Part shown: positions 2,417 through 40,379 of the stretch, piece after piece
Numbering within the stretch: position 1 is the stretch's first letter
How the letters are laid out: each line of letters begins with the position of its first letter
NCBI GenBank assembly: GCA_021904315.1
Contig: CM038911.1
Span: forward strand, 24,215,390 to 24,279,389
Source of the DNA: Sphagnum magellanicum
Lineage: Eukaryota > Streptophyta > Sphagnopsida > Sphagnales > Sphagnaceae
DNA: 64,000 bases
Direction: 5' to 3'
The notes under the pieces: model-generated
What the model was told of the DNA's origin: nothing
The model's input: only the letters and a program-made list of their open reading frames with translations
The model's database searches: none
Position numbers and translations under genes: made by a program

Positions 2417-4575
2417 TACTACAAGGAATTTTGTCCATACCAATCCACACATTTGGGACTTGTGTTCAAATCAACCATTTTTTCAACTATTGATGCGATT
2501 ATCCTTTGTGGCACCATGGTAAAAATGACTTATAGTTGTAAAAACAACTAAAAGTGGTTTGTAGTTGCATATGCAACTATTACTTGTGACTAATGTTAGT
2601 TTGGATGAAAGTGATGATGAAAAGTGGATGTAATCATCTATTTTTAATGGTATTTCAAAATATATGAAAATGTAGTTGTTTTTGCGACTTGGGATGTGGT
2701 TCATAGGCCATTAGACACCACATGGATCTGATTCAACCTCAATTGAAACTATAAATCCTAATTACAAATGCACATGAAATTAAATGTAACAAAAGTGAGT
2801 TGCCAATGAAATTGTTGGATTTCATGGTTTAATTTCTTTCCTTAGCTTTTTTGAATGAACTAACCATTAAATGTGTAGTAGGGTTTGTGAAACTTTAGTG
2901 GACCCATGGCAATGGTAAATTTGGACGATTATTTGGAATTTCCAACATTAAATTTTATCATGTTGATATATCATAGTGTTTTTTAATTAGTTAATTAATT
3001 AAGTAGGTTATGCAATAGTCTATTTATAAATTAAACTAGATAAGAAGTAATAATTAAGTAAGATATGTAGTAGGAAGTATGTACATGGGTTAAGTAGTAA
3101 ATAGTAGGGGTGATTAATATGTGATAACATTTTTGTATAAATTAATTACTTAATTAGGTAGATTATGTAATTAATCTAGTTATTAGGCTAGGTAGTAGGG
3201 TTAATTCATAATCCATTTATAAACCTTACATGTGACTAAGTTATATATCATATATCTAAATTGTTATTTTTTGGTAAAATTATAGTATATTATAGGGAAA
3301 AAAAAACTTTAAAAATCAAATAGAGATTTGAGATGTGAAAAATATATAATATATTTTTACATTTTTAATCATAATTTTACTTTAAATATTAATATATTAT
3401 AAATGAAAAAATTTAAAAAATTACAGTTCCATAAAATCAATTAATTATATGGCATTAATTAATATTCAAAATTAAAATAAAAATTTAAAATTAATCCTTT
3501 ACATCAGAAATAATATAATTAATATAAGATATTCTATTAAATTTATATTATATGTGAATAAATTATATATTACACATCTAAATTAAATTCTATTATTAAA
3601 ATTATGATATGCAAAAGAAAAATTGTATAATGTAATTTTTAGAATCAAATGAAAGTTTAAGATACAAAATATACAAATTTTTTTTGTTGTTATATTATCC
3701 ACAAAGTGTTTTTCCATTCATAAATCATCTGCTCGAATTAATTTTTTCCAAGGAATGGTCAATGAAACGATATTCAATAACAAAATTCAAATATTTTTCT
3801 TTTCAATTTAGTTTACATTTTTGAAAGAAAGACTACATAGTTGTGTACATTATTGAAAAAAATTTCAAATTAAATTTCAAATCTTGCCATTTGGAAAAAT
3901 TATCAATAAGATATCAAATATTGAAAATGATGTTTTGTGTAATGTTTTGAATCAAGTAAGGTAAATAGAATGCACATTGCCATATTGTCACAAAAAGTGA
4001 TGTGGTTTGGTGGTAAAGGAGTTGATCGCCACTTGTGTGGTATAAGGATCAACTCTTACAAGTGACATGGGTTGTAGTCAATAGTGATAATTTGATTGAA
4101 TATTCCTTACTTACATAACCTATTAGGTAGATTAAGTGGCCTATTCAATAACCTAAACTAAGCTTTTTAGTATAGCGTAGGTAATGACATGTTTCAACAA
4201 CTTATAAGTTGAAATTAATGAAATTATCAATAATATAATATATATAATAATTATTATTTTATTTTAAAAATATTTTAATATTAAATATTTTTTAAATAAT
4301 AATTAATGTGACTACATTGTTTAATCGTAAAAGTAGTTGCAAAACTATAGTGCCACATAAGTTAATTTGGATGGATGAACTATTCATGTAAATCACATCT
4401 TCATGTGACTGCCATTGTGACTTGGTGCCATGTATTGTGCCATATATTGTCTTTTGTGACTGAAATTTTATGTGACTTGTCTAAGGCAACTAGAGCAAAT
4501 TATAGTCACATGTGGCATTTACAACTGAAAATTAGTTGAAAAAATTAGTTGTTAATATGGAACTTCCTTGTAGTG
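2417..4575. mobile_element. Non-autonomous CACTA element 1
   Basis: The right end reads, inward, CACTACAAGGAAGTTCC. The left end reads TACTACAAGGAATTTTG, so the first 12 bases match apart from a decayed first base. TTA directly precedes (2414-2416) and follows (4576-4578) the element, the 3-bp duplication expected of CACTA/En-Spm. Both inner flanks are dense in TAGTTGCAA, GTGACTA and GCAACTA words, like the sub-terminal transposase-binding repeats of the family. The 2,159-bp core is very AT-rich with no transposase, so it would depend on an enzyme made elsewhere. Confidence 0.85.
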
Positions 4576-4578
4576 TTA

Positions 4579-5571
4579 TAATTTCCCCAATATATCAATT
4601 TTTTTTGTTAATCATTTTCAAATAAATATGATTTTCAAAAAATGTAAGTTTTTGCACTTAATTTCTATGTTTCGTTTTGAAAAATGATCACAATTTCAAA
4701 TCGTGTTAAAACATGTTAACTAAGTTGAGGTTTATTCCTTTGTATTATAAACTACAACTTTGTTTTAAACACCATTTACATTGCATTATATTTACACATC
4801 ATAAAGGTTTCATGAACATCAAATAGACCCAAATTTTCAACTTTTTTGGAAAAACATAAATTTTTTATAGATTCCTTATATTTTGAGTGTTTTTTTATGT
4901 GTGTTTGATAGTCCCCTATTATTACAAAAAAATCAACATCAAAAGGTTTGTATATTATGAAAATTAAATGCCCCATTGTAAAACTAGTAATGTTTCACAA
5001 AACACCCACTCAACTTTCAAGGTCCTTTGTTTGAATCAAGACTCAAAATCAAAAGATCCAATGGTTCAATTTAAATTTCTTAACATCCATATTAAACATA
5101 AAGCACTACTTGTCATGATTAACATGCTATTAAAGGGGGCACCACACAGGCATTATATACATATATAAATGTAGTTTAAAACATGATTTGACATGGTTTT
5201 TGGTTTATTGTTTCATGGTTTACCCACTTTAGGACTAAAAGTTATGAAAATGCCTCCAAGAAATACCATTCGTCAAGGACTTTCCAACAATACCAAGAGC
5301 ACATTGCAATTTCCCTAAAAACTTAGTTATAATTTTATAGAATTTTCCTTGACAAATTTGGTGAATATTCAATAATTATTGCATTGTAAGTCTACTAAAT
5401 GATGCAAAATTGACTTCATGTATCTTTAGTCATCAAGGGATTTCCAAAAATACCAAGGACAAAAAGGGTGTGGTTGTGATTTATAGATCTCAACTTGGCA
5501 AAAAACACAAAAGAAACAAACCACCTTACCTTAAGGTTAGGTTTGTCATTAAATAATCCTCAAAATAGTGA
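4579..5571. other. AT-rich spacer
   Basis: No gene, no repeat array and no element ends seen between CACTA element 1 and the large hAT. Two 66-codon frames (minus 4776-4976, plus 4968-5168) have no recognisable motif and look like chance. Confidence 0.5.
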
Positions 5572-5589
5572 GAACTTTGCAGACCTTCT

Positions 5590-5858
5590 ACCACTACAAA
5601 GTTAATTACTTTAACTATTTTTTTTCATATTCGGGTTGTGACAACCTCTAAGTTAACTATTTTTTTTCATCCTCGGGTTGTGACAACCTCTAAGTTAACT
5701 ATTTTTTTTCATCCTCGGGTTGTGACAACCTCTAAGTTAACTATTTTTTTTCATCCTCGGGTTGTGACAACCTCTAAGTTAACTATTTTTTTTTCATCCT
5801 CGGGTTGTGACAACCTCTAAGTTAACTATTTTTTTTCATCCTCGGGTTGTCACCATCT
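5590..5858. repeat. 42-bp sub-terminal array, left end of hAT-1
   Basis: Five near-identical 42-43-bp units, each with the dyad GGTTGTGACAACC, a second dyad AAGTTAACT, and a run of eight or nine T followed by CATCCTCG. The GGTTGT dyad starts near 5634, 5676, 5718, 5760 and 5803. The same unit recurs at the right end. Repeated dyads just inside the ends are the usual binding platform for hAT transposases, so that role is inferred here. The 60-codon open frame across it only reflects the repeat. Confidence 0.93.
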
Positions 5859-6973
5859 GTTTTGTGCAATTGCAGTCTTATCAAGATGTTGAACTTTTTC
5901 CATACTTCACCCAAAAAAAGGGCTTTGTTAGCATGCATAACTCAACAATCATGCTTTAATCAAAGCTGGGCTCCTAATCCATCCTAATCCATGCAGTGAT
6001 AAAAGGTTTTTCACTACTGTAGTACCTTTTATACTACAGTTTTGATACATATCTATCAAGTAATTAATTAATTTTATTATTTTCATTTCAACAAATAAAA
6101 AATTCTCAAAGATTCAATATTTTCCTTCAAAAATGTTTGTTATTTGAATTCTTATTTGGAAAATTAAACATTTATGAAAATAGTATAATTAGTGTTGAAG
6201 CTGCCAAGGTATTGGTTGGTACTTGTTAATTCAGCATCCAACTCAAATGTTCTCTCTCTTCTCTTTGATAGTTGTTCCAGTGCAGCTTTATCATGCTCAC
6301 CTCCCATTCACCCAGCCATAGTCTCAGCAGCCTCCATGATGCTCATCTCAAATTATACGCCCAGTGCAATACTTTGAAGGAGAAAAAGTATGTAATACGA
6401 ACCAGATCATAAGTGAGATAGACTGCATTGAGCTGCCTTCAATTCTCTTGGCATCTTCCACCTGTGGATTCTGGATGTAACTTCATGTCACAACTCACAC
6501 TAAATTCATATGTCCATCCATGCTGATTAAACCATTCAATATTTAGCTTGCACATGATGATTTGATGGAACCCATTTTCTTCCCCTTGTCACTTAGACAA
6601 ATCTGTAAATAGTCTGTCTACTTATCCTTGTAGATGAAAGCAAGAAGCATCAAGGAATTCCAAGTTAATATTCGGACTTTGGACTTGAAACTTTCTCTAT
6701 TGTAAATTCAGGTACAAGTACTCTCAGATGTTGGTCTAGTATATACGAATTTGCTCCTGTTATCAACCCTAGTATAACAAGGACCTGACCAGTCTGGTAT
6801 CAGCTGAGGCAATATCAGGCTTTTTATACCAGTACTAGCCTGGTAGCACTAAAAGAGTCAAGGACATGAGGTAATACCAACCTTAACCTTTGTAGCTTGT
6901 AGATTCAGAAATAATGCAATGACTCATGGCATCAATGACAGCCGTACTGGAGTAGTAGAGCTTTGGATTCACA

Positions 6974-7891
6974 GTGAAAAGTTGGTCCAAAGTCCAGTTT
7001 GCTAGTCATGATTCTTCTTCAGAGGAGGAGGAGGATCTAATCAATCAAGATGATGCAGACTTTACGCAGTACAATTTCTTGTTGAAGATCATGAGAGGAG
7101 GAAATAGTCAATTGCCAATGGCTACTACTAGCATGATCCTAAACATAAATGCATCTAGTTCCAAAACTCATGAAACCATAATGGCTCCCACAGGTGCTTC
7201 AGGATCTGCAGTAGGGTTCAAAGAGCCCAAATTCTCCTCCAAGAGATGCAGTCCACGGTTCTGCAGAAACCTTAACCTTGTCATAAAGGAGTAGGAACAG
7301 AATACAAATCAGAGTGAGGGTATAGTTCATTACCAAGTTGGAGCTCAAACAGAGTGTGAAGATTCTGCAACTGGAATGGAATCTCAAATGGAACGCGCGA
7401 TGACTAAAAACAGAAGCTCATATTTGTGTGAACGCACTTTGACTAGGAAGTGGTCATCTTCCACAGACCAGATTGATGTTTGCATGGCTACTGTAGCATC
7501 TACTGAAGTGTTGAGTTCTAAGGAAGCGATTGCTATTGGCTTCCCACAGCATTCTGCACATGAAATATCCATCCTTCCATGTGTGAAGATGCCTATGGTT
7601 GCAGACACAGAAGTCAAAGATTTTACAAAGGAGTTAGAAGTTAAAGAACCTGCTACTATAGCCATCTCAGGTGAGGCTGGAACAGTGTTCATGAACAAGG
7701 GTTGCCAACAAAAATTCTTCTTCACGACATTGACAGCAGTTAAACAAAGCCAATTTATGGTAGTGAGCAGGAAAGACAAGAGAACTGATGTGACATCCAC
7801 AACCCCCAGCATCTCTTTAGATAGGAAAATTGTCATTGTCATCGTGAGTGTCTTCTTCTTCCTTCTCTTCTTCTTCGCCTCCATCATATAG
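6974..7891 (+). pseudogene. Unrecognised second ORF of hAT-1, one in-frame stop
   Basis: A frame of about 305 codons, open except for one TAG at 7292-7294 (probably a former CAG). I do not recognise the protein. Residues near 10-25 are acidic (SSSEEEEDLINQDDADF); the rest is Ser/Thr/Lys-rich without zinc-finger or catalytic motifs. No ATG begins it: 6974 is GTG directly after TTCACA, so a 3' splice site just upstream is possible. Its last 25 codons overlap the transposase 3' end on the other strand, and its membrane-like tail (VIVIVSVFFFLLFFF) is the antisense of the transposase's acidic tail, so it should not be taken as a membrane segment. It may be an accessory protein of the element, a captured host exon, or chance; an open frame this long in AT-rich DNA argues against chance. 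Confidence 0.5.
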
Positions 7892-10495
7892 TGCCATTAC
7901 TGGCCGCTTTGGAATGTTGTTTTCCCAATTCAAATTCATTTTCTTGTCAAGCAGGACCACCTCGGTCGGGTTCGTCGGGATGAGGTGCTTGTTGATCTTG
8001 AGGAACATATTGATATCTACCAAGCCGACACACAGCGACGATCGTTTTGGAGCCAGGACGTTTGACAGGCTGCCCAGGTCGCATTCGAGTCCACCCGAGG
8101 ATGGCTTGTTGGCCAGGATCGCTAGAGCAGCCTGCATGAGACATGGCATGCTTATTTGACGAGCCCACCACTTGCATAGCTTGGCTGATTCCGGCCACAA
8201 CTCGATATTGGTTTCATCGCCAATTCCTTTGAGGATTTGAACTTTGACGTTCACCATCTATGCCACCGTCTCGAAACATTCGCCACTCCCATTAACGTCC
8301 TTCTTGTCATCATCAGCCACAATATCAAGAGCTGCTGACAACAACTCTAATGTCTTGACGCGCTTTGCGGGTCTTTCAAGTCGCAGTTGGGGTACTCCCT
8401 ACCATTTGCTACTTCTTGAGCATAATCGGCGCTGCAACGGTCTCTGCTAAACATTTGATTTTGTTCCATATGAACTGGTTCACGAACACAAAGTGTTGCT
8501 TTTGTAGGCTATCTTGTGTCCAGCCAACAGTAATATCAAGCCTATCAATGTTAGTCGCATTGATCAACTTCGCTAGGATCTTTCCAGATGTCATTGGCGG
8601 GTACAGCATACTCTGTGCGTCGATTAAGTACGAGAACTTGAAATCGGTTTCTTCCAAGACGTTCTTCTGTAACATGGGTTGCCCAAGGTTGTTATCGTAG
8701 ATCTTCTTGGGCTGATGAAGCACCAATATCGGATGGTACCGTTTGAAGTAGCGTTCAAACATTGCCTTGCCAAGAAACTTCCATGTTTCACGAGTGGCCG
8801 GTTGCAGTACGTCATGTGATCGCGACATTGGATAGGGGTCTTCAGAACTGAGTTGACAACGTACCGGTATTATCAACTCGAGCGGCTTGCTTACATCGAA
8901 GACAATAGTGTACAAAAAGTATAACATGACGTACACATCGACAATGACAAATGTTTGCATAGCTTGTGCCTTGATCTGAATGGCCCGAACCGGCTCAATC
9001 AGTGAATAAAACTCGATGCACAATGTGCGGTCCATGTCGACTAGTGGAACTGGTCGATTGAGTTTGCGGTACGCTTGCAAAAGAGGTTCCCAGGCTATTA
9101 GAATTCGCTCCAGTACAAGCGTTGTGGATGACCATCGGTGTTGCGGCGAGTTAAGTAGTTTAAGGTACGTCTCCAAGAGTTCAAGCATGGCTTCCTCGAA
9201 GGCTCCCTGCAGGTACTCAGACTTGTTCACAGCTTCAATGACCTTCTTGATCCTCTGGAAGAAGCAGCGCACGTCCACATTCTTACTATTGTTAGGGTCG
9301 ATCGAGGTGCCAAACGCTTCCGTGAGTGCCAGGTGGATTAGATGTGATATACACCATTCCCACCAAGCATCGATCAGAATGTCTAAGGTACGCTTTACAT
9401 CGGATCCCGAATCTGAAGTGCTTGTCAGCACATCAAGCATCACCTTAATGCCAAACTCCTTGAGGACGCCTGAAGACCATTCGTGCAAGATTGTAGACAA
9501 CTGTTCCGCTTGACGCTCATCGGTAGTCGGTGCAAATCGGCGGAAGGCGAAATTGTAGCCAATATTAAACCTAGTCGACGATTGAAGCACATTCGCAATG
9601 CCAGGTACTTCTGATTGCTCATCTTGCTTTTTATCAGGTCCAGGTACAATGATAGGTACTTGATCGTAAAGAATGAGTGCGCCTCAGCGAGTGACATAAT
9701 GATGATCTTCTTGCACGTGGTGTACAGCTCGACGTGAAGCTTGCGGATGTTAATTGACTTCATTCCACCTTCCCCGACAGGTAGTTGACGATCGATTAGT
9801 TGCCATTTACAGGTCGTGAACGCGTTGTACGAGATCGAATGCTCGACGGACCAGGCTTCCAACTACATTTCAAACCAGCGCTTTGGGTCTTTTTTGAAAG
9901 TCGGGTCGGATAGATCGAACTGCTTCTTGATATGTGCTAGCTTCTTGTTAGTTGCCATGGTCTTGGATGAGGTTATGCAGTGGTTCTTGTCGAGGTGGGT
10001 GTAAACGTTCGACGTTCCCATCTTTGTGCACTTAATGACAACTGGCTTCTTGACATTGAAGCACGGGTCTAGCAAGCAGATGAACCACTTGACCGTCTCC
10101 TTGTCAATCAGGCGCACGCCACATTAATTAAGGAAAGACATCGTCTTTTTGAGATCCTTAATTGCGGCGCCCTTGATGATAGCTGGGAAAATGCCAGCGT
10201 TGATGAAGTTTTTGATCCAAACTGCCACGATGTCTCCACGCTCAGCATCGTCAACTTCAAGTTGCGTCTCTTCGTCAACCTCAAGTTGCGTCTCTTCGTC
10301 AACCTCAAGTTACGCCTCTTCGTCAACCTCAAGTTGCGCCTCTTCGTCATCAATCTCGACAGGTACAAAAGATGCCACTTCACCTTCAGTAGTGATGCTT
10401 CTGGATTCGATGACATGATCTTCGGACCAAGCCATGATGTGCATTCCAGCACCAACTTCTGTTGCCACACTGTTGAGCCCGAGATTCCTCATAGA
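7817..10495 (-). pseudogene. hAT-family transposase, broken
   Basis: Reading down the minus strand: a candidate ATG at 10493-10495; an acidic stretch with four copies of an 8-residue EVDEETQL-like repeat; a BED-type zinc finger (C-x4-C, then YTHLDKNH giving H-x4-H) near 10000-10100; an RNase-H-like core with DSGSDVKRTLDIL and WEWCISHLIHLALTEAFGTS near 9310-9420 and HRWSSTTLVLERILIAWEPL near 9090-9150; and the C-terminal dimerisation region with SSGGLECDLGSLSNVLAPKR near 8030-8090, ending in an acidic tail. These are hAT hallmarks. Breaks: in-frame stops at 10310-10312, 10124-10126 and 9863-9865, a frame change near 9560-9600 and another between 8410 and 8260 (the last could be an intron). The product would excise and insert the element as a nuclear dimer; this copy cannot make it whole. 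Confidence 0.9.
10258..10346 (-). repeat. 24-bp in-frame repeat in the transposase N-terminus
   Basis: Four tandem copies of a 24-bp unit (plus-strand core CAAGTTGCGTCTCTTCGTCA) encode an acidic octapeptide repeat on the minus strand. One copy has a C-to-T change that makes the first stop of the transposase frame. Confidence 0.9.
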
Positions 10496-10584
10496 ATCTT
10501 CCAACAAAATGGAGGACTACACAGACTAAAGAAAGTTCAGAACAGAATTCCACACAGATGAAAAGGTATTCAGTAGTTGAGAAG

Positions 10585-10746
10585 TTTAGGAAGGTGAATA
10601 TCTTGACAAAAGACAATCAAAGATGAGACTTGGAGAATCCTGTTACATACAGATCTAAAGCCCATTTTAGGAAGGTGAATATCTTGACAGAAGACAATCA
10701 AAGATGAGACTTGGAGAATCCTGTTACATACAAATCTAAAGCCCAT
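10585..10746. repeat. 81-bp tandem duplication
   Basis: Two copies of an 81-bp unit beginning TTTAGGAAGGTGAATATC differ at only a few bases. It lies just upstream of the transposase start, where a promoter would be expected. Recent duplication within hAT-1. Confidence 0.93.
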
Positions 10747-11003
10747 TGGCTTCAAGACTCCTGGAGTCTGCATCAATGTCTCTATTAGGAATGAACTTTG
10801 AGTACTCGATACAAGTTTTGTATGAAATCTCAATCTTGTATCCTCAGTTTGTGGATGATTAGGTAGCTAGACTAGGATCTTCATCTTCACTTTGATCAAG
10901 TGATCTAAAGGATCACAGACAGTAGCAGTAGCAGATTGAGACGAAAGAAAGAATCGGACCAGTTAGCTAGTAGTAGCCAGGCTATATTTAGTCTTGAAGA
11001 ATC

Positions 11004-11400
11004 ATGTTACCAGGTGTAGTAGTATTGGGAAGTTATGTGGTAGCTTTACTGGTGGAGGTGGCCGGTGTGCTAGTTGCCACATTGAGCATGTGCACCGCTA
11101 GAAGAAGAGATCCTCACCACAAGACTAGTAGTGCTAGGAAATGCAGCGCCGGCACCCAGCAAACGGATTATGAGCTGAATGGTCGGCTCAACATAACGGC
11201 GCCGGCGAGACTGCAGGCTCATCTGGAAATGGGATTGATGGCTGGGCTTCTGGAGGCGGACATCACGGAAGAGGATCAGCAGCTGCATATGATGATGATG
11301 ATGATGATGTTGTAGCTGGATCAGAAGGATCAGCTGATTACGATGGAAGTCTTGATGGAGGCGGTGGATCCGGAATAGGAGGAGCTGCTGGAGTACCCTT
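11004..11400 (+). other. GC-richer segment of hAT-1 with low-complexity open frames
   Basis: GC content rises over the AT-rich background. One frame is open for 103 codons (11004-11315) and ends in a run of Met from seven ATG/GAT units (11288-11311). A second frame reads an Asp run then Gly/Ser/Ala-rich sequence to a stop near 11403. No domain is visible. It could be an exon of the plus-strand gene, captured host sequence, or a 5' regulatory region for the minus-strand transposase. Confidence 0.35.
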
Positions 11401-11531
11401 GTAGACCTTCTACCACTAAAAAATTCAAGTAGATTCGAAGCAGCCTAACTAAATTGTTAGGTAGTAGTAAATGGTGTGCTTACTTCAAGTGGTGATTTTC
11501 ATGTGAGCTCAGAGATTTCTTCGCCACCGCC

Positions 11532-11663
11532 GGCTGTTATGTAGTAATCCATGAAATTAAATGTATAAACAGCTCGGCTGTTGTGTAGTAATCCATGAAA
11601 TTAAATGTATAAACAGCTCGGTTGTTGTGTAGTAATCCATGAAATTAAATGTATAAACAGCTC
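11532..11663. repeat. 44-bp unit in three tandem copies
   Basis: Three exactly phased copies start at 11532, 11576 and 11620; each holds GTAGTAATCCATGAAATTAA and ends AAACAGCTC. Copies differ at one or two bases. Part of the right sub-terminal region of hAT-1. Confidence 0.95.
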
Positions 11664-11720
11664 GATTCACGATGCGTCTGTGAGTGTGGTACTGTGAGGG
11701 ACATGGATGTGGATGAACTG

Positions 11721-11968
11721 CAGACCTTCTACCACTAAGTTAACTATTTTTTTTCATCCTCAGGTTGTGACAACCTTTAAATTAACTATTTTTTTTCATC
11801 CTCGGGTTGTGACAACCTCTAAGTTAACTATTTTTTTTCATCCTCAGGTTGTGACAACCTCTAAGTTAACTATTTTTTTTCATCCTCTAGTGGTGACAAC
11901 CTCGGGTCACCACTTAGTGTAGTTAGTGGCGTTTTAGCGGGTTTAGATTTTTAGTGGTAGAAGGTCTG
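11721..11968. mobile_element. 248-bp terminal module with hAT-1 inverted ends
   Basis: A second copy of the hAT-1 left terminus (CAGACCTTCTACCACTAAG) starts at 11721 in direct orientation and is followed by four 42-bp units; the segment ends with the true right terminus at 11968. On its own it would look like a MITE with both ends. A third partial terminus (AGACCTTCTACCACTAAAA) lies at 11403. It may be a nested deletion derivative or a duplicated left end. GAACTG precedes 11721 and GAACTTTG follows 11968, not a clean TSD, so independent insertion is unproven. Confidence 0.6.
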
Positions 11969-11976
11969 GAACTTTG

Positions 11977-14480: not shown

Positions 14481-16150
14481 ATGGCCGCACACCAGACGAT
14501 ATTGTCATCACCCATGCATGTTAGTAGTGCGCCAGCAGCTATGGCTGCGACCCTAAATTATGATGCCAACTCCACGCTCAGGAACGCGGGGCTGCTGTCG
14601 CCAGTTCCGCACTCTGAGTCGAAGCAATTACCAGCCATGTTCATCGAGGCCGACAAAACCCAGCGCTCGAGTGAGGACTCCTGGGAGGCATCTGAGCATG
14701 CCGAGCTGGAGGTGCCCGTGCTAGATCTGGAGGTGCTGAATTCCGGGCCGGACAAGCTCGGCCAACGGCAGGAACTTGTGAAGGCGATGGCAAAAGCGTG
14801 CCAGAAGTGGGGCTTTTTCCAGGTTCTTAACCACGGGGTCGATCAGGCGTTGATCGACAGGTGCGAGGTGGAGGCACACCGGATGTTCGCGCTCCCGCTC
14901 GAAGTGAAGGAGCGAGTCCATCGCCCCCCTGGCACATCGTTCGGGTACGGCGCCAACACCTGGGTGAACCAGAAGGTCCTGCATTGGGCGGAGAGCTTCC
15001 ACATGCAGCTGCATCCAACCTCCAACATACACGAGATGGCTGCAAAGCTCTTCGCCGAGGGTGACCCCAACCAATTCAGGTACAGGTTGTTCGTGAAGGT
15101 GCCACTCTGCTGGAGAGGGTTGGGATATGCGCAGAGTAGCCAATTAAGTAGTAATCCATACTTTTTTTTCTTTAAGTGCCATCTCAGATTGCGAGTTCAT
15201 TTTATTTGGGCCGGGTGTTTGCGCAGCTCAGCGGTAGAGTCGTACATGACAGCTGTGGAGGGCCTGGCCCGCCGATTACTCGAGCTTCTCACCGAGGGGC
15301 TGGGGCTCGAGCCACGCCACTTTAGCCAGTACCTCGAGAAGGAAAGGATGATCTCCATGCGCTTCAATTTCTACCCTCCTTGCCCGGAGCCTTCTCTTGC
15401 AATTGGTCTGCGAGCTCACACCGATCCCCATCTCCTGACAATCCTCCACCAGGACAGCATTGCCGGCCTACAGGTGCAGATTCATGACAAATGGGTCACT
15501 GTGAAACCCCGGCCTGACTGCTTCGTCGTTAACATAGGTGACCTCTTCCAGGTACTCATCCACTTGTCCTCTCTCTCTTCCTCACTTCACGTAAACCAAC
15601 ACGATTTGAAGCATTATTCCGCGTCCATACCGCAATTTAGTTCCAGGACTGAACTAAGTGTCGATGGCCTACCACTGTTGATAGTCATTGTCAATCTTGC
15701 TGGCAGCAAGACCACCTTCCCGCTGGTACCACCAGCTCATGTAGGTGCTTGAAACTGTTCATTTCTGGTCTCAGATGATCTCCCGATATTGTACACAACT
15801 TCGCCACAGTACTGCAACCAATTGATGCTTACATTTGATATATTTGATATTACCTAATTAATTGCTGCCTGCACAAAATTTCTCTTCTGAAGGTACTGAG
15901 CAACACCATGTACAAGAGCGTGCTGCACCGCGCATTCGTGAACAGCAGTTCCCAGCGTCTGTCCCTGGCGTGCTTCCTCAACCCGCCGCTGAACGCAACC
16001 GTGGCCACACCCCCCGAGCTCATCACGCCAGAGTGGCCACAGATTTATCGCCCCTTCACGTGGCTAGAGTACCTGAAAAACGCCTACTTGTACCATCCCA
16101 TCACTGGTGCAGACAGACACGAGCGCTTCTTCTTGAGTGCTAATTCATGA
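14481..16150 (+). CDS. 2-oxoglutarate/Fe(II)-dependent dioxygenase, gibberellin-oxidase-like
   Basis: Three exons, 14481-15079, 15227-15551 and 15893-16150, with GT-AG introns; 1,182 coding bases give 393 residues. Residues about 75-190 are the DIOX_N domain (KWGFFQVLNHGVDQ at 109-122). The jelly-roll 2OG domain follows: NFYPPCPEP at 247-255, iron ligands H264 and D266 (HTDPHLLTILHQD) and H320 (YKSVLHRAFVN), and the 2OG-binding R330-x-S332. All active-site residues are present. Such enzymes couple oxidation of 2OG to succinate and CO2 with hydroxylation or desaturation of a small molecule, usually in the cytosol. The NFYPPCP, LTILHQD and IYRPFTW motifs resemble the GA20ox/GA2ox/GA3ox group, but substrate cannot be read from sequence. 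The 74-residue N-terminal leader, Ser/Ala-rich and poor in acidic residues up to about residue 44, is longer than usual; in-frame ATGs at codons 12 and 21 are alternative starts. Confidence 0.93.
15080..15226 (+). other. Intron 1 of the dioxygenase gene
   Basis: 147 bases, GTACAG...GCGCAG, phase 2. Joining TTC AG to C TCA gives Phe-Ser-Ser and keeps frame into AVESYM. The intron also happens to be open in the upstream frame, which extends the unspliced reading. Confidence 0.8.
15552..15892 (+). other. Intron 2 of the dioxygenase gene
   Basis: 341 bases, GTACTC...CTGAAG, phase 0. It separates the HTD motif exon from the distal-His exon; splicing gives GDLFQ-VLSNTMYKS. An intron before VLSN is common in plant 2OG dioxygenases. 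Confidence 0.88.
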
Positions 16151-23075: not shown

Positions 23076-24925
23076 CTAGAAATCCCCATCCCACCCATGG
23101 CCAGTAGGGTTAGGCATTTGTTCACTTATGACTTCAAATGTGAAGTCCATATAACATCTATGCAGAAAGTTTGTGAGAATAGCAACAACTTTGAACAAAT
23201 GAATGTATTTTGGTTTTGTTGAATCAAATATCTTCATCAATCATTTCCATTTCCTTTTCAATCCACTAATTCTCCATTCCATTCACACTATATATTTAAC
23301 ATGCATATTGTTGTAGGCCTTGATAGCATCATCACCAGAATTAGGACCCACCTCCCACCTCCCTCTTCATGATGAGTTTTTTTTGCTTAAATGACCAAGG
23401 TTTCCAAATAAGTACTCAAAATACTCATCATCGTGCACAAAAAATTGGCACCAACTTTGATGTAGCTCAAATTGATGAAGGATGGTCACATCATGGTAAG
23501 ATTTTGAATACTTAAAATCCAAGAAAATTAACAAGCTTTAATGATCAACCACCATAATGTTATCCATCAAATAGATCTTCTTGCGCCCATTAAACCAAAT
23601 CTTGTGTTCACGATCATTCCAAGGTTTCTGGATTTTAATCAACGTGCCATCAATCAATCTAATGCAACCATGGAACTTGGGTATGGTGGTACCCAACACA
23701 TGTCTTTCCTATTCCATGGGCCATCAAATTTAAGGAGCAAGTGCATCGTTGATGCAAGATGCAATGAAAATTACATCATCACAAACCACACTTTTTGACC
23801 AATTCCATAAAAAAACATCATACATGCAAACATTGTAATGTTTCATGTACAATATGAATTATAAAAGGTGTTGTTTGAGGGTCAATTTTGAAGGCTACTT
23901 TGTCCAAATGTGATAACATACACACCAATATAGGTGTTCCATTAAACCCTATCATAACATGTAAATCTTAACTTAGACATCTAATTTAAACCCCTAAAAC
24001 TTAAACCCTAAAACCCAAACCAAAACCCTAACCTTAACCCCTAATCCTATACCCTAGAACCTAAACCCTTCTTTCAACCCCTAAACCCTTAAAACCCTAA
24101 AACTTAAATCTTAATCTTAACCTTGAACTTTAATCCAAAACTTAAACCAAAACCTTAACCCATAAATCCTAACCCCTAATCTTAAAACCTAAAACCTAAA
24201 CCCCTATTTTAACCCCTAAATCTTTAAGATTTAAACCTTAAACTAAACCCCAAACCCAAGCCCCTACTTTAAACACCTAAAACCAAGACTCTAAAACTAA
24301 CATATGTTTTTAAACTTCTAACCCTAAACCCTAGAACCCTAAATCTCAACCCATTACTAAAACCCCTAAAACCAACATATTATTTTAGCCCTTAAACCAA
24401 AACCCCTAAAGTGAAAACCTTATTCTTAACCTTTAAAATTAAAACCTTAGTTTTAAACCTTAACCATAAAACTTGATTTATTTCCCTAATCCAACCCTAA
24501 AAAAATGAAACATTAATACAAAACCCAAACTTAAACCCCATAAAACAAATTAACTTGAATTGAAATTATGGTGCCCACCTATTGATCATGCATGCCTTTC
24601 AATGGTGGGCACCACTAGTGTTGTCAACTCATCGAACTTCACCAATGTTAAATTAGGGACTTGAATAACCTTGGGGTTGCTTGCATAGTAGCAAGCACAT
24701 CTTGAATTCCCATGTCAAGATCCATTGATTGGCTTGCACCCTCCTCCAACTCATTAGCATTGGACATGATAAATGAATTAGCAACAACAAATGCACATGC
24801 AAAAACACATTGTCTTTGCTTATGCTGTCAAAAAACAATTGCTCCAAGATCTCATCATCAATTGAGGAAGAGGAACTAGAACCATCTCACATGGAGCTAG
24901 AACCATGGCTTGAAGATGAGGCCAT
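23076..24925 (-). pseudogene. PIF/Harbinger (HARBI1-like) DDE transposase, broken
   Basis: Candidate ATG at 24923-24925 opens a Ser-rich N-terminus (MASSSSHGSSS, then IDDEILEQLFFDS). After a long non-coding stretch the catalytic part resumes near 23880. It includes LYMKHYNV, SCINDALAP, GCIRLIDGTLIKI (first Asp), WFNGRKKIYLM, KSYHDVTIL (second Asp), FFVHDDEYFEYLFGNLGHL, and MEWRISGLKRKWK (the Glu), then FDSTKPKYIHLFKVVAILTN and a TAG at 23076-23078. This order is that of HARBI1-type nucleases, which cut and paste DNA in the nucleus with a TWA target. Breaks: a TGA in the Ser-rich start, a TAA after VVDH, a TGA after KKNSS, one before MEWR, and frame slips near 23800-23880 and 24700. Clearly dead. 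Confidence 0.85.
23960..24545. repeat. Degenerate telomere-like (CCCTAAA)n tract
   Basis: Dozens of CCCTAAA, CCCTAAAA, ACCCTAACC and CTTAAACC variants on the plus strand over about 580 bases. This is the plant-type telomere repeat (TTTAGGG) in decayed form, so interstitial, not a chromosome end. It lies between the N-terminal and catalytic parts of the Harbinger transposase, as intron or insertion. Confidence 0.85.
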
Positions 24926-35484: not shown

Positions 35485-36721
35485 TATTGTGCCAAATGGT
35501 TGTTGACCAAACATTTGAAGGAGGTGCATGGCTTGGTGGAAAAAAAAAGGCCAAACCTGGGAGGCCTTCAAGTTTTGCAAGAGATCCTCGACATCAAGAC
35601 CATGCTAAATTGAATGCTCGCATCTTAGGAAATGCCCAGGCCTTGCAAAGGCAGAATGATCAAAAGGTTGTTAGTTGTGCTCGTGCCAAAATAGAATAGG
35701 AGTGGGTAAAGTTGGTAACTGTTGCAAAACAATGTCCACCATTCCCAAAACCAGCTTTGGTTAAATTAGTTTTAAAGCAATTATTTTAAGTGTTGGGTCG
35801 AAATGCTTAGGGTGTGGGAAGTGTGGTTCGAGATGTAACATCACGAATGGAGAAGGCTGAAAATATACAAGAGATGATTTGATCCACCTGTTGTGTTTAT
35901 GCACAACAATTAAAAATGGCATGGGATGTACAAAATTGGGATTGAGAGTCCAATAAATCAAGTCGGACAAAACAATTAATAGATATATTAGATTTTCATG
36001 AATCTAGAATGATTCATGGAAGGTTAAAAATAATAATAATCAATGTTTATTGTTTTTTTATAATTTTGTTTCATCCAAGGTGTGTTAGGGTTTAATTTGG
36101 TGGTTTTTGGGTGTTTATAAGGTTGAGGAGACAACAAAGGAAGAGTTTGTTACAAATGCAGTTTAGGTTGAGATGCAACGCCGCCAGTTCTACATTACTT
36201 ATCATGCAGCAAGGGCTACAAATGTAGCAACTACTTATCGAACTAAACACGGGATTATAAATATTAATATGGTTTAGGGTTTTCACTTTATATAATTAAC
36301 TAGGTTTTTTTAGGCCTTTTATTTTTTGGACTACCTAATTTTTGAACTTTGGTCCTGTGATATGTTATGGAAAACCTGTTTTTTTCATTGGGTTCTTTAG
36401 CAATTTTTCATCCATGCATTTTTGTACATATTTTATTAATATAATATATTCTTCTAGTCACATTTGTTTGATGGGTATATGGTTAATCGTATATTTCCTT
36501 AGTACTTAAAATGTAAGATCAAACCTTAAATAGGCCCATATGAATAGGTAATATTAATTTGTCTAGGGTTTATAAATATCAAAATGAACATTATGTAATA
36601 CTTACATTTAATGTAATAAGACTCACATCACCTAAAAACTTTTAAAACAATACACACATTTTAAACATATAATACCTACATCATTTTCTATTATAACCTC
36701 CATAAAGCCATTTTCAAATAT

Positions 36722-37040
36722 GCAATACCCACATATAGGATCCCATAATAGTTGCTGATTTTTTACATTCAATGCAATACCCGCATATAAGATCCCATAA
36801 TAGTTGTTGGTTATTTACATTCAATGTAATACTTGCATATAAGATCCCATAATAGTCGTTGGTTTTTTACATTCATTACAATAGCCGCATATAAGGTCCC
36901 ATAATAATCGCTGGTTTTTTATATTCATTGCAATACCCCATATGGGTCCCATAATAGTCGTTAGTTTTTACATTCATTGCAATACCCGCATATAGGGTCC
37001 CATAATAGTCGTTGGTTTTTTTCATTCATTGTAAAACTCA
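36722..37040. repeat. 52-bp tandem array
   Basis: Six to seven units phased at 36722, 36774, 36826, 36878, 36930, 36979 and 37031. Consensus words are GCAATACCCGCATATA, GGTCCCATAATAGTCG and TTGGTTTTTTACATTCATT. Divergence is low (a few bases per unit), so the array is fairly young. Confidence 0.95.
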
Positions 37041-37440: not shown

Positions 37441-39654
37441 TGTACTTATTTTCACCAATTACAAATTTAGCCTTAATTTTATTAATAACTAAATAAAATT
37501 TGTAACAAAACACAAAAGAAGGTATGTCTTTTACCATTTGTTAATATCTTTAAGTTAATTTCTTTCATTTTTTAAAAATGTATATATTGCATTATTTTGC
37601 ATATAAAATTCCCCCTAAAACACACTGTAGATTTTTTTTATTTACTATAGATTTTTTTTTTAAATGTTAATTAATTTAGGGTTTCCCAAACTCTAAATTT
37701 GAATCATAATCCAATAATATATTTATAACAATTATATGAACAAATGTGTTTTTTTTATAATAAATTTTTAAAGTTCAAATTTAATATGTTATAATATAAT
37801 AAGGAATATACATTAAACTGTCATAAATGTTTATTAGGCTTACGTGGCCTAGGTTAATAAACTACCTATATAACTAGTAAGTTTATTTAATAAGTTCAAC
37901 CACCTTCAATACCTACATAGACCATTTAAAATATTAACCTAGAAGGCCTACACTAATGAATAAACTACATAATAGGCCTATATTACGTAGGTAGCCTATT
38001 AGGTAGTTAATTAAATTACTTAACAAGTAGCTTACTAACCTATTACTCATGTTTAGGCTAGGTTGTTTAGTTTGGTCAATGTCAACATTTTAATCAATCT
38101 AACAACCTTGGTAATGAACTTTTGTTGAAGTTAGTAATTTGTTAAGGCTATAGATTTTTTGTTTTTTTTATGAACATTATTGTGTTTTTTGGATAGTCGA
38201 ATCATGTTTCAACTTTTGAAGGTGTTGAAAACATTACATAACAACTTGGCCCTCACAAAGCTTCTAAATCCACACAAACTCTGGCATGGTTTCTAAGAAT
38301 TTATGAACATTTTCATACTTAACTATTAATATTTTGGAATTTTAAATTTGCATTAAAAACAAAGTTCATTAAAAATAATTGCAATATACATAACCATAGG
38401 TTTATATATATATATCAATTTTTATATTATTTTAAGTAAATATGTTTGAAATGAATATAACTCCATAATATCATTATTTATATATAATGTGTTATAAATA
38501 ACAATATATTTGGACCAATATTTAAACCAATATTTTACATCATAAAAAATAAAGTTTACATAATGACTTGTGTTATATATGTATAAAATAAAATTTCAAT
38601 TAGACATATGATTAATATATGGGAGAGATCATTTTTATTATTATATGAAATAGAAAAAAAAGTGGAAAATTATGTGCTTTGAATTTTTTTAAAACATAGT
38701 TTAAAATCTTATTAAATCAGAGACTTTATATTTTTGTTTTTTGAAATGAATTTACAACTTTAAAAGAGAAAAAACATAAATATGAACATATTTGAAGAAG
38801 TTTTAAGCTTGAACTTTTAATTTTTTGATCTTGACAAACTTTATATTGCATTTAAAGTTGGGTTTTCACATAAGGTTTGTTTCTTACCTTTGTGTGATCT
38901 CTCCGACCTAATTTTTCCAATCTCTTTGAAAAAGATATAAAATGAAATTGTAATGTTTCACGTATGTCTAAACCCTAAAAATTTCCCCCCAATTTAATGT
39001 AAAATATTTCAGACAATTAATGAATTATCAACAAATTTTGTCATATAATTAAATAATTAATAGACGAATATTTCGGATAATTTAAATGATTAATTATCAA
39101 GAATTAGATAATCATTTATTTATTTAAAATAATTAATTAATCATTTTTAAACTTTATTTATTTGGATAATAAAAAATTGAATTTAAAAATCAGATTGATT
39201 ATATTGACATTTGATCGATTAACTTAATTATATATATATTTTAATAAGTTATTGAAATCATTATTTAAGATACTTATTCCATGTTATAGATTGCTAATTC
39301 AACTTTTCCATGAAAAGTTCGTACACTAAGATAAGCTTAATCATAATTGTCATTGAAACAAATAATACAACCTCTTTTCAAATTCAATGAAACAAAGTAA
39401 GAATCATGGAACTCCTAATCAATAACCCCAACCTTTATACACACTTTTGTTAGCATATTATTTTGAAATGAATTAGTTATTTTGGAATGACCTAAAATGT
39501 GAGTATTGCATATAAGGTTGAGTTATTTCAAAATGACTTTGCATGTGGGTATTATGTTTAGGGCTAGGTCTTCACTTAAGGGTATCTAAACCATCTAGAT
39601 GGGTTTTTTTGAAGCGTGAGTATTACATTTAGGGTTGATTCTTCATTTAAACTT
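37441..39654. other. AT-rich spacer of the Mutator-like region
   Basis: No gene. Contains a segment (37500-38070) repeated downstream of the transposase, AGGTAG/CCTACC words at 37850-38060, a second copy of a TTCCAATCTCTTTGAAAAAG block at 38880-39000, and long A/T-only stretches. Confidence 0.5.
37500..38070. repeat. Direct repeat, left copy (right copy 43980-44770)
   Basis: The two segments share, in the same order and orientation, an ACAAAA-GA-GTATGT start, an AATTAATTTA...CCCAA-CCTAAA block followed by CATAATCCAATA-like sequence, and then AGGTAGG-type words. A third, shorter copy (38870-39000) matches 44020-44140 best: CTTTTGTGTGATTTCT, ATTCTCTTTGAAGAAAATAT, AAAATTTCCCCCC. They flank the Mutator-like transposase about 6.5 kb apart. 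Too diverged to call LTRs. Confidence 0.55.
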
Positions 39655-39930
39655 GCAATACCTAGACTTATATTTACCTCTACCAACTAGAATATTGGGG
39701 TTTTGTTGTAATACCTACACCCGTATTTACCTTTACCAACTGGAATTTTGGGGCTTCGTTGTAATACCAACACCCATACTTGCCTCTGCCAACTAGAATT
39801 TTGGGGCTTCATTGTAATACCTGCACTCGTACTTACCTTTACCAATTGGAATTTTGGGGCTTAATTGTAATACTTACACTTGTACTTACTTCTACCAACT
39901 GGGATTTTGGGGCCTAGTTACAATACTTGC
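39655..39930. repeat. 53-bp tandem array
   Basis: Five units exactly 53 bases apart (39655, 39708, 39761, 39814, 39867). Each reads like GTAATACCTACACCCGTA, CTTACCTCTACCAACTGG, AATTTTGGGGCTTCATT. The GNAATACC start is shared with the 52-bp array. Confidence 0.95.
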
Positions 39931-40379
39931 ATTTAACACTAATATTATCACTATCCTTATTTTTGCATTTCACACTTTTTGTGTTTATTACTTGGAAACA
40001 ATAATAAGCTTTGTGCCATATTAGACTTCATGTGTGTGTTGAATACATGATGTTCAAAGAATTTGGGCTATAGTTTCCTCCATACAAAATTGATTCTAAA
40101 ACAAAATTCTTAGTGCCAATGGAAACAATTTTGATTAGTAATTGAGACATTTATTCATGACATCGTTCAGTGCATACATTTGTGTGATTGAACATTGTTT
40201 CATGCCAATCTTTGAGCTATTTGACATTATTTCGCAATCCATCTTCTATGTGGTGTAACACCAATCCTGGGTGTAAAATTGCATTTGCCTTTGTGAGGCA
40301 TATGTTATGAATATTACATGCTAATACTCTCATGTGTGAGGTGGCATGTTCATGAAGTGTCACATCGTTTTTTTTACAT
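39931..40379. other. Spacer before the Mutator-like gene
   Basis: No gene or repeat seen; this is just past the 3' end of the minus-strand transposase. Confidence 0.45.

Follow-up and report, generated by a model that had tools for sequence, protein, structure and literature searches.

A hAT-like transposon family of Sphagnum magellanicum that carries a transposase region together with DNA matching five host loci

A 64,000-nucleotide stretch of Sphagnum magellanicum DNA (the window; GenBank assembly GCA_021904315.1, contig CM038911.1, positions 24,215,390 to 24,279,389 of the forward strand) contains a transposon with exact ends and an exact target-site duplication around a broken transposase gene. 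How was such an element assembled, and did its gene fail before or after it inserted? The hAT-like element occupies window positions 5580–11968. Its perfect 17-bp terminal inverted repeats, CAGACCTTCTACCACTA, lie at 5580–5596 on the plus strand and at 11952–11968 on the minus strand, and the 8-bp duplication GAACTTTG flanks them at 5572–5579 and 11969–11976. With up to three mismatches allowed, the 17-mer matches the window four times, against 0.10 expected from shuffled sequence. The other two matches are found inside the element, at 11402 (one mismatch) and 11721 (perfect).

The genome (439 Mb, 31 contigs) was searched with the 5′ end of the element, which returned at least 118 matching stretches, and with the transposase, which returned 55; copy numbers here are lower bounds. 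Twenty transposase loci were fetched. L021–L031 together with the window copy make up the 6.4-kb family (family A), and the nine loci L032–L040 make up a sister family (family B). All 11 A copies with both ends, window included, have the same two tips (up to three mismatches), each at a different site, and measure 5,677–6,784 bp; the duplication is perfect in 10 of them and has one mismatch in L026. The eight B copies with both ends are about 3.7–3.9 kb long, have tips as in A, and show duplications that, read by eye, are perfect in seven and have one mismatch in L034. All nine short relatives (eight fetched loci and a composite on C2) have perfect 8-bp duplications, which brings the total to 26 of the 28 insertions examined with both ends, the other two having one mismatch. 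The initial annotation had described a complete, well-delimited 6.4-kb element with 17-bp ends and an 8-bp duplication, and these copies confirm it. It had also named related copies ending at other positions as the observation that would count against this description; the outer ends proved constant, with extra tips found internally.

L029, whose 3′ end is absent from its stretch, was kept out of the both-ends count and the whole-element alignment, and L039, in which no 3′ end was recognized, out of the duplications and the whole-element alignment; both were retained for the transposase. Left out of the analysis were transposase loci at C11:16815014 and C2:28434162, 5′-end matches at C12:427735, C5:10663714, C19:14651391 and C8:451801, and places with a 46-bp piece of the sister family at C11:14362071, C11:898681, C10:12623845 and C3:10115542. 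A search with the 308-bp left flank revealed no paralogous empty site for the window insertion among the best 40 candidates scored; non-self matches there stop at or before query position 263. On C4, what seems to be one split copy (G000) lies in two parts, C4:313877–318498 and C4:324182–325217, about 6 kb apart and in opposite orientation, as after an inversion.

Membership of the hAT superfamily was assessed from the ends and from the protein. The 17-bp tips fall within the 10–25 bp given for the short terminal inverted repeats of hAT elements in the available excerpt of PMC3942097, and 8-bp target-site duplications are likewise a hAT criterion. A Pfam search of the transposase pieces gave no domain above its cut-off. 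A profile of 13 relatives matched chains of the Hermes transposase (E 0.0024) over the C-terminal dimerisation region, one relative (P0046) scored just below the cut-off for PF05699 (E 0.0005, 20.2 of 21.4 bits), and PF05699 is assigned in precomputed annotation to P0099 and P0115, which are more distantly related. In a weak single-sequence alignment with Hermes (E 0.046), HRWSST pairs with TRWNST and SSGGLEC with SSAASER, which we take to be core hAT motifs (the RW motif and the glutamate region, respectively). The predicted structural model of the transposase was poor, with a mean pLDDT of 39.9. Taken together, weak profile matches, tips and duplications suggest that the element is hAT-like. 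The Ac group prefers targets of the form nTnnnnAn. The 26 perfect duplications of the moss family instead give nAAnnTTn, with A at position 2 and T at position 7 (95% each in a symmetrised matrix), where the Ac type has T and A. Distant relatives of the transposase (P0085–P0135) occur mostly in short contigs, and the lineage may extend beyond mosses.

The two families share tips and transposase and differ in their interiors. Matches of at least 120 bp between B copies and the window are confined to 7811–10458, the transposase region, with 89–92% identity over the main 2.47 kb and 79–82% over a short 5′ piece; shorter matches are limited to the tip regions and the 46-bp piece. Reading inward from the left end of the window copy, a subterminal array at 5611–5850 (plus strand) contains 5.7 repeats of a 42-bp unit that includes the palindrome GTTGTGACAAC and is present once in the sister family. 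Next comes a fragment termed L1 (5858–6836), which matches the opposite strand of C18 at C18:18160302–18161270 (93%) and has a dispersed repeat inside. The filler that follows (6837–6882) holds, in the majority sequence, an 11-bp repeat of nearby L1 sequence (CAAGGACCTGA); a search for a source of the filler found none. Fragment L2 (6883–7808, plus strand) matches C19:8861703–8862614 (92%) and is separated by 2 bp of filler from the transposase coding region (7811–10458, minus strand).

Beyond the transposase, fragment R1 (10450–10778, plus strand) matches C17:7736845–7737095 at 93–95% and contains an internal 81-bp duplication. It overlaps the 5′ edge of the transposase region by the 9 bp CACCAACTT, where the donor has CACCAACAT (eight of nine bases). 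Fragment R2 (10779–11401, plus strand) matches C11:4004156–4004767 (91%) and ends in TACCCTTG, exactly at a buried tip, TIR2 (11402–11425, plus strand), which is an inverted 24-bp stretch of the 3′ end and is 100% identical in the majority. Fragment R3 (11422–11664, plus strand) shares 4 bp of homology at its junction; its part at 11422–11572 matches C14:8475589–8475736 (92%), and the rest is a tandem repetition of this sequence (44 bp, three copies). A 46-bp remnant of the sister's 3′ interior then follows (11664–11709, plus strand; 100% to the sister majority), and the right end is formed by a 248-bp short element (11721–11968, plus strand) made up of a 5′ tip (TIR3), a 42-bp array and a 3′ end of about 63 bp. 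Because this short element stands beside the sister 3′ remnant, we read it as nested in the remnant and its 3′ end as now serving as the right end of the whole 6.4-kb element. Such nesting would also explain why both 42-bp arrays point in the same direction.

The extra DNA of the 6.4-kb form thus amounts to about 3.1 kb, nearly half of the element, and matches five loci on five chromosomes. In the scored genome-search lists, which for L1 and L2 covered the best 40 of 1,565 candidates, each fragment has one clear place besides the family copies (C18, C19, C17, C11 and C14 for L1, L2, R1, R2 and R3), apart from the dispersed repeat in L1, an older sequence on C16 that is related to L2 (70%), and a partial match lying in tandem next to the R2 locus. 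These five loci are probably the sources of the fragments. Against the A majority they show 35 substitutions in 964 sites (L1), 31 in 909 (L2), 11 in 217 (R1), 22 in 611 (R2) and 7 in 148 (R3), or 3.4–5.1%. There is no clear excess of C>T among these substitutions, so the fragments probably travelled in an active lineage.

Some of this material may derive from genes. L2 is part of a 308-codon open frame at its donor locus, which has relatives in other records (three at 82–95% and three at 42–44% identity), although a Pfam search with these relatives returned nothing. The R2 locus has a 146-codon frame with a weak glycine-rich protein score (18 bits for PF07172, whose cut-off is 30). R1 lengthens the transposase frame upstream in the A majority, where the frame continues across the transposase 5′ edge to give 892 codons, with an ATG at 10492–10490. 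The S. troendelagicum protein P0019 starts with the R1-coded residues MRNLGLNSVATEVGAG, which indicates that the join between R1 and the transposase is present in a second species.

The buried tips offer a view of how these pieces came to lie side by side. At the C11 locus the host sequence reads straight through the position of the R2 break, and TACCCTTG occurs once in the 4,001 bp fetched. Three A copies (L023, L028 and L031) are missing R2 and retain its first four bases, TCTC, before the TIR2 tip, which argues for deletions ending exactly at that tip; a late insertion of R2 between R1 and TIR2 is ruled out by the same four bases. These three copies also hold an inverted extra 5′ tip. It joins L1 in L031, a C18 piece (C18:17735600) starting with GAAAATTG in L023, and, after five other bases, a C6 piece in L028. 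L023 then continues with C6 and C3 pieces, for three further host pieces in all, and L028 with the rest of its C6 piece and the C3 piece, for two of the same three. At the C18 locus of the L023 piece, too, the host sequence is continuous across the break position, and the 601 bp fetched contain GAAAATTG once.

We scored the octamers abutting the buried tips against the target motif. At ten distinct junctions, one of them deletion-derived and absent from an initial five-junction sum, five octamers fall in the top 5% of scores, and their summed score was matched by none of 200,000 random sets of ten drawn from the window. The same was true (0 of 200,000) when four previously dropped rows were added back, namely the tip-like matches in L047 at 722 and L049 at 540 (regarded as inherited copies of the TIR3 junction) and the imperfect matches in L049 at 455 and L022 at 6885; with only the six junctions from the 6-kb family, the figure was 11 of 200,000. 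With the same matrix, 25 of the 26 true duplications are in the top 5%, the matrix having been built from these duplications. Since they abut octamers resembling the nAAnnTTn target, the buried tips look like old insertion points. The other five octamers lie below the 5% mark, including those of TIR3 (ATGAACTG) and L031, and the nested reading of the right end leans on the former.

A smaller relative shows a comparable arrangement. The composite on C2 (16779257–16780523) contains two short elements separated by a spacer of about 0.4 kb and bounded by a single outer duplication, AAAAGTTA. One inner tip is truncated and the other adjoins GAAGGTTC. The spacer consists of dispersed-repeat sequence, with a best match of 86%, and in a related repeat on C10 GAAGGTTC occurs once and homology to the spacer stops exactly at the tip.

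These observations make it likely, in our view, that this is a hAT-like cut-and-paste family whose 6.4-kb form was built by neighboring insertions moving as one, together with joining at short homologies. Assembly would have started from a simpler element of 3.7–3.9 kb, into or beside which short relatives and other copies inserted. The transposase would then have used the outer tip of one element and the far tip of another, such that everything in between, host DNA included, moved as a unit, and further host pieces would have been added at breaks through short-homology joining. The built form, its transposase frame open, would have spread to at least 12 places, where each copy afterwards decayed, chiefly by C>T. 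The order of events, the use of alternative tips and the short-homology repair are our reconstruction, to be taken as probable steps. The neighboring-elements model agrees with R2 and the right end, as well as with the C18 piece in L023 and the C2 composite. L1, L2 and R1 lie away from buried tips in the window copy and need another route, and short-homology joining better suits these remaining pieces, given the 9 bp at R1, the 4 bp at R3 and the fillers at the L1/L2 and L2/transposase joins.

One could instead suppose that every host piece was copied in during break repair, through gap filling and template switching, with the buried tips being copied scraps of element ends and not insertion points. 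We regard this as possible, at a distinctly lower probability. The short homologies at R1 and R3, the 2-bp filler at L2 and the L1/L2 filler with its L1-derived repeat are all in keeping with it, copying would leave the matching host loci where they were, as is observed, and gap filling was favored for most single-copy animal cases according to the available extract of Tan et al., 2021 (PMC8277862). It also counts against our account that no element was found beside the matching piece at the host loci within the 601 to 4,001 bp fetched around each. However, copied scraps should seldom stop at an exact tip beside a target-like octamer, as half of the ten junctions do, and the host loci should not carry that octamer at the break. 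The C2 composite, with its single outer duplication, further shows movement as a unit.

The account in which neighboring insertions moved together has the built form spreading with an open transposase frame, which brings us to the state of the gene. In an alignment of 21 transposases (12 A and 9 B), an open majority frame extends from MAWS to the stop codon, with 865 codons in A and 852 in B. The frame is continuous and needs no introns, which were considered and dismissed. Relative to the 21-copy majority, the window copy has stops at codons 87, 174, 659 and 710 and frameshifting deletions of 1 and 2 bp, in line with the at least three stops and two frame changes previously counted from the window alone. 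Both frameshifts are private, and no frameshifting deletion is common to more than one of the 21 copies. Among all 21 there are 83 stop alleles at 44 positions, and 73 of these alleles could arise through C>T/G>A alone; 25 of the 44 positions are shared, 15 of them across both families. One window stop is private and three are found elsewhere, in both families (174 in L024, L027 and L039; 659 in L022; 710 in L036), and C>T/G>A changes suffice to produce all four. In L022, a copy on C18, about 500 bases of the transposase region (4450–4962) have no match to the window copy.

C>T changes dominate the divergence of the copies. In the A transposase alignment they account, with G>A, for 1,015 of 1,236 differences from the majority, and of the 206 non-C>T variants just 6 occur in more than one copy. 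C>T rates there are 0.121 in CHG, 0.099 in CG and 0.029 in CHH, compared with 0.0047 for A>G. For the interior as a whole, the rates fall from CTG (0.132), CAG (0.116) and CGG (0.111) to CAT (0.010), with near-equal strands (0.066 and 0.064); dissimilar sequence that was aligned in L023 and L028, with 221 shared variants, makes these rates less clean than the transposase-only ones. Across the A and B copies CHG (CTG and CAG) and CG lead, and CTC, CTA, CTT and CAA stand well above CAT, CAC and CCH. We infer that methylated cytosines decayed after insertion, and the footprint in these copies lends itself to comparison with Sphagnum methylation data. Over about 5,490 sites, the window copy departs from the majority by 151 C>T/G>A changes and 24 changes of other kinds. 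For non-C>T variants carried by 2–5 of the 11 aligned copies, it has at most two in common with any one copy, whereas it has 9 to 18 C>T sites in common with each of the ten others. Sharing of C>T sites that is spread over all copies, next to such limited sharing of other variants, argues for recurrence and not common descent.

On the best reading of these alignments, the copies broke after insertion, mainly through CHG and CG C>T decay, although one of the three shared window stops may have been inherited. A perfect duplication and a broken gene are compatible because the decay is mostly C>T, and with 24 non-C>T changes the window copy is young by the slow clock, so its exact duplication is unsurprising. 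The initial annotation had proposed that the copy was inserted while already broken and mobilized by a relative. Movement in trans does happen in this family, since the short relatives lack a transposase region and have perfect duplications throughout, and three of the four window stops do recur in other copies. But with the frameshifts private, no such deletion shared among the 21 copies, the majority frame open, shared stops spanning both families, the window stops all within reach of C>T/G>A, and no more C>T sites in common with the stop carriers L022, L024 and L027 than with the other aligned copies, insertion in a broken state appears very unlikely. Of that annotation, the complete hAT-like element therefore stands and the insertion of an already broken copy is unsupported. 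Least credible of all is that the 6.4-kb form is the older one and the 3.7–3.9-kb sister a derivative that lost the extra DNA: non-C>T change per copy is similar in both families, so copy age alone gives no order, but the extra DNA still matches host loci at 3.4–5.1% substitution and the right side holds a remnant of sister interior adjoining the nested short element.

Captures by cut-and-paste transposons have been described in several systems, which we compare here through excerpts of the cited papers. In Pack-TYPE elements, with hAT examples named, neighboring insertions move as one and internal tips become mutated or deleted (Gisby and Catoni, 2022; PMC8903248). As in Pack-hATs, the Sphagnum element has host fragments between transposon tips, from five loci and with L2 in an open frame that has protein relatives. 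Pack-TYPE elements are defined as non-autonomous, however, and the excerpt's pipeline files any transposase-matching element as autonomous (PMC8903248). The Sphagnum element has a transposase region, open in the majority and broken in the window copy, and is thus Pack-like and not a strict member; it unites transposase and captures from five host loci with buried tips and target octamers that have been preserved. In maize, Ac/Ds elements containing filler DNA, along with the Ac-Ds macrotransposon, resemble it in their hAT tips and gene-derived filler, and a Ds-Ac pair moves up to 100 kb of DNA, but the gene captures described are in Ds2 and Ds-l4 elements, and the excerpt calls capture by hAT rare and its route unknown (Du et al., 2011; PMC3260210). 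Animal Pack-TIRs include hAT captures, short homology at breakpoints and multicopy cases with distinct duplications; unlike the Sphagnum family they are mostly single copy, with gap filling without transposition, and the excerpt describes no buried target octamers (Tan et al., 2021; PMC8277862). Gene fragments likewise occur in class II superfamilies of another plant, grapevine, as cut-and-paste transposons with transduplicated genes, but these are not from moss, and the assembly steps are not shown in the excerpt (PMC2528002). The open-licence full-text literature, as far as excerpts go, yielded Pack-hATs, Ds with gene fragments and the Ac-Ds macrotransposon, and neither a hAT element with a transposase and multi-locus captures nor a Sphagnum hAT. 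The capture model is already published; within that literature, a transposase and many captures in one element is new.

The route by which cut-and-paste transposons capture host genes is still argued, with repair copying on one side and neighboring insertions moving together on the other. The family keeps likely intermediates, namely buried tips, target octamers, host loci with the octamer, a composite with a single duplication and sublineages with different loads, and could thereby separate the two models base by base. More tentatively, it might be seen as a self-building autonomous transposon, in which the lineage keeps its transposase and the short relatives act as movable ends that land nearby, lend their outer tips and allow host DNA to be collected stepwise, one captured piece having lengthened the transposase frame. 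The element also suggests that surveys excluding any transposase-matching element will miss autonomous elements that carry genes.

Elsewhere in the window, an open 423-codon frame at 14481–15752 (plus strand), about 2.5 kb downstream of the element, contains DIOX_N and 2OG-Fe(II) oxygenase domains and is likely a dioxygenase gene. Degenerate TAAACCC-like tandem repeats, which resemble plant telomere sequence, are found at 23986–24222, away from a contig end. Tandem arrays also lie at 36721–37031 and 39653–39931, with unit lengths of 52 and 53 (106) bp.
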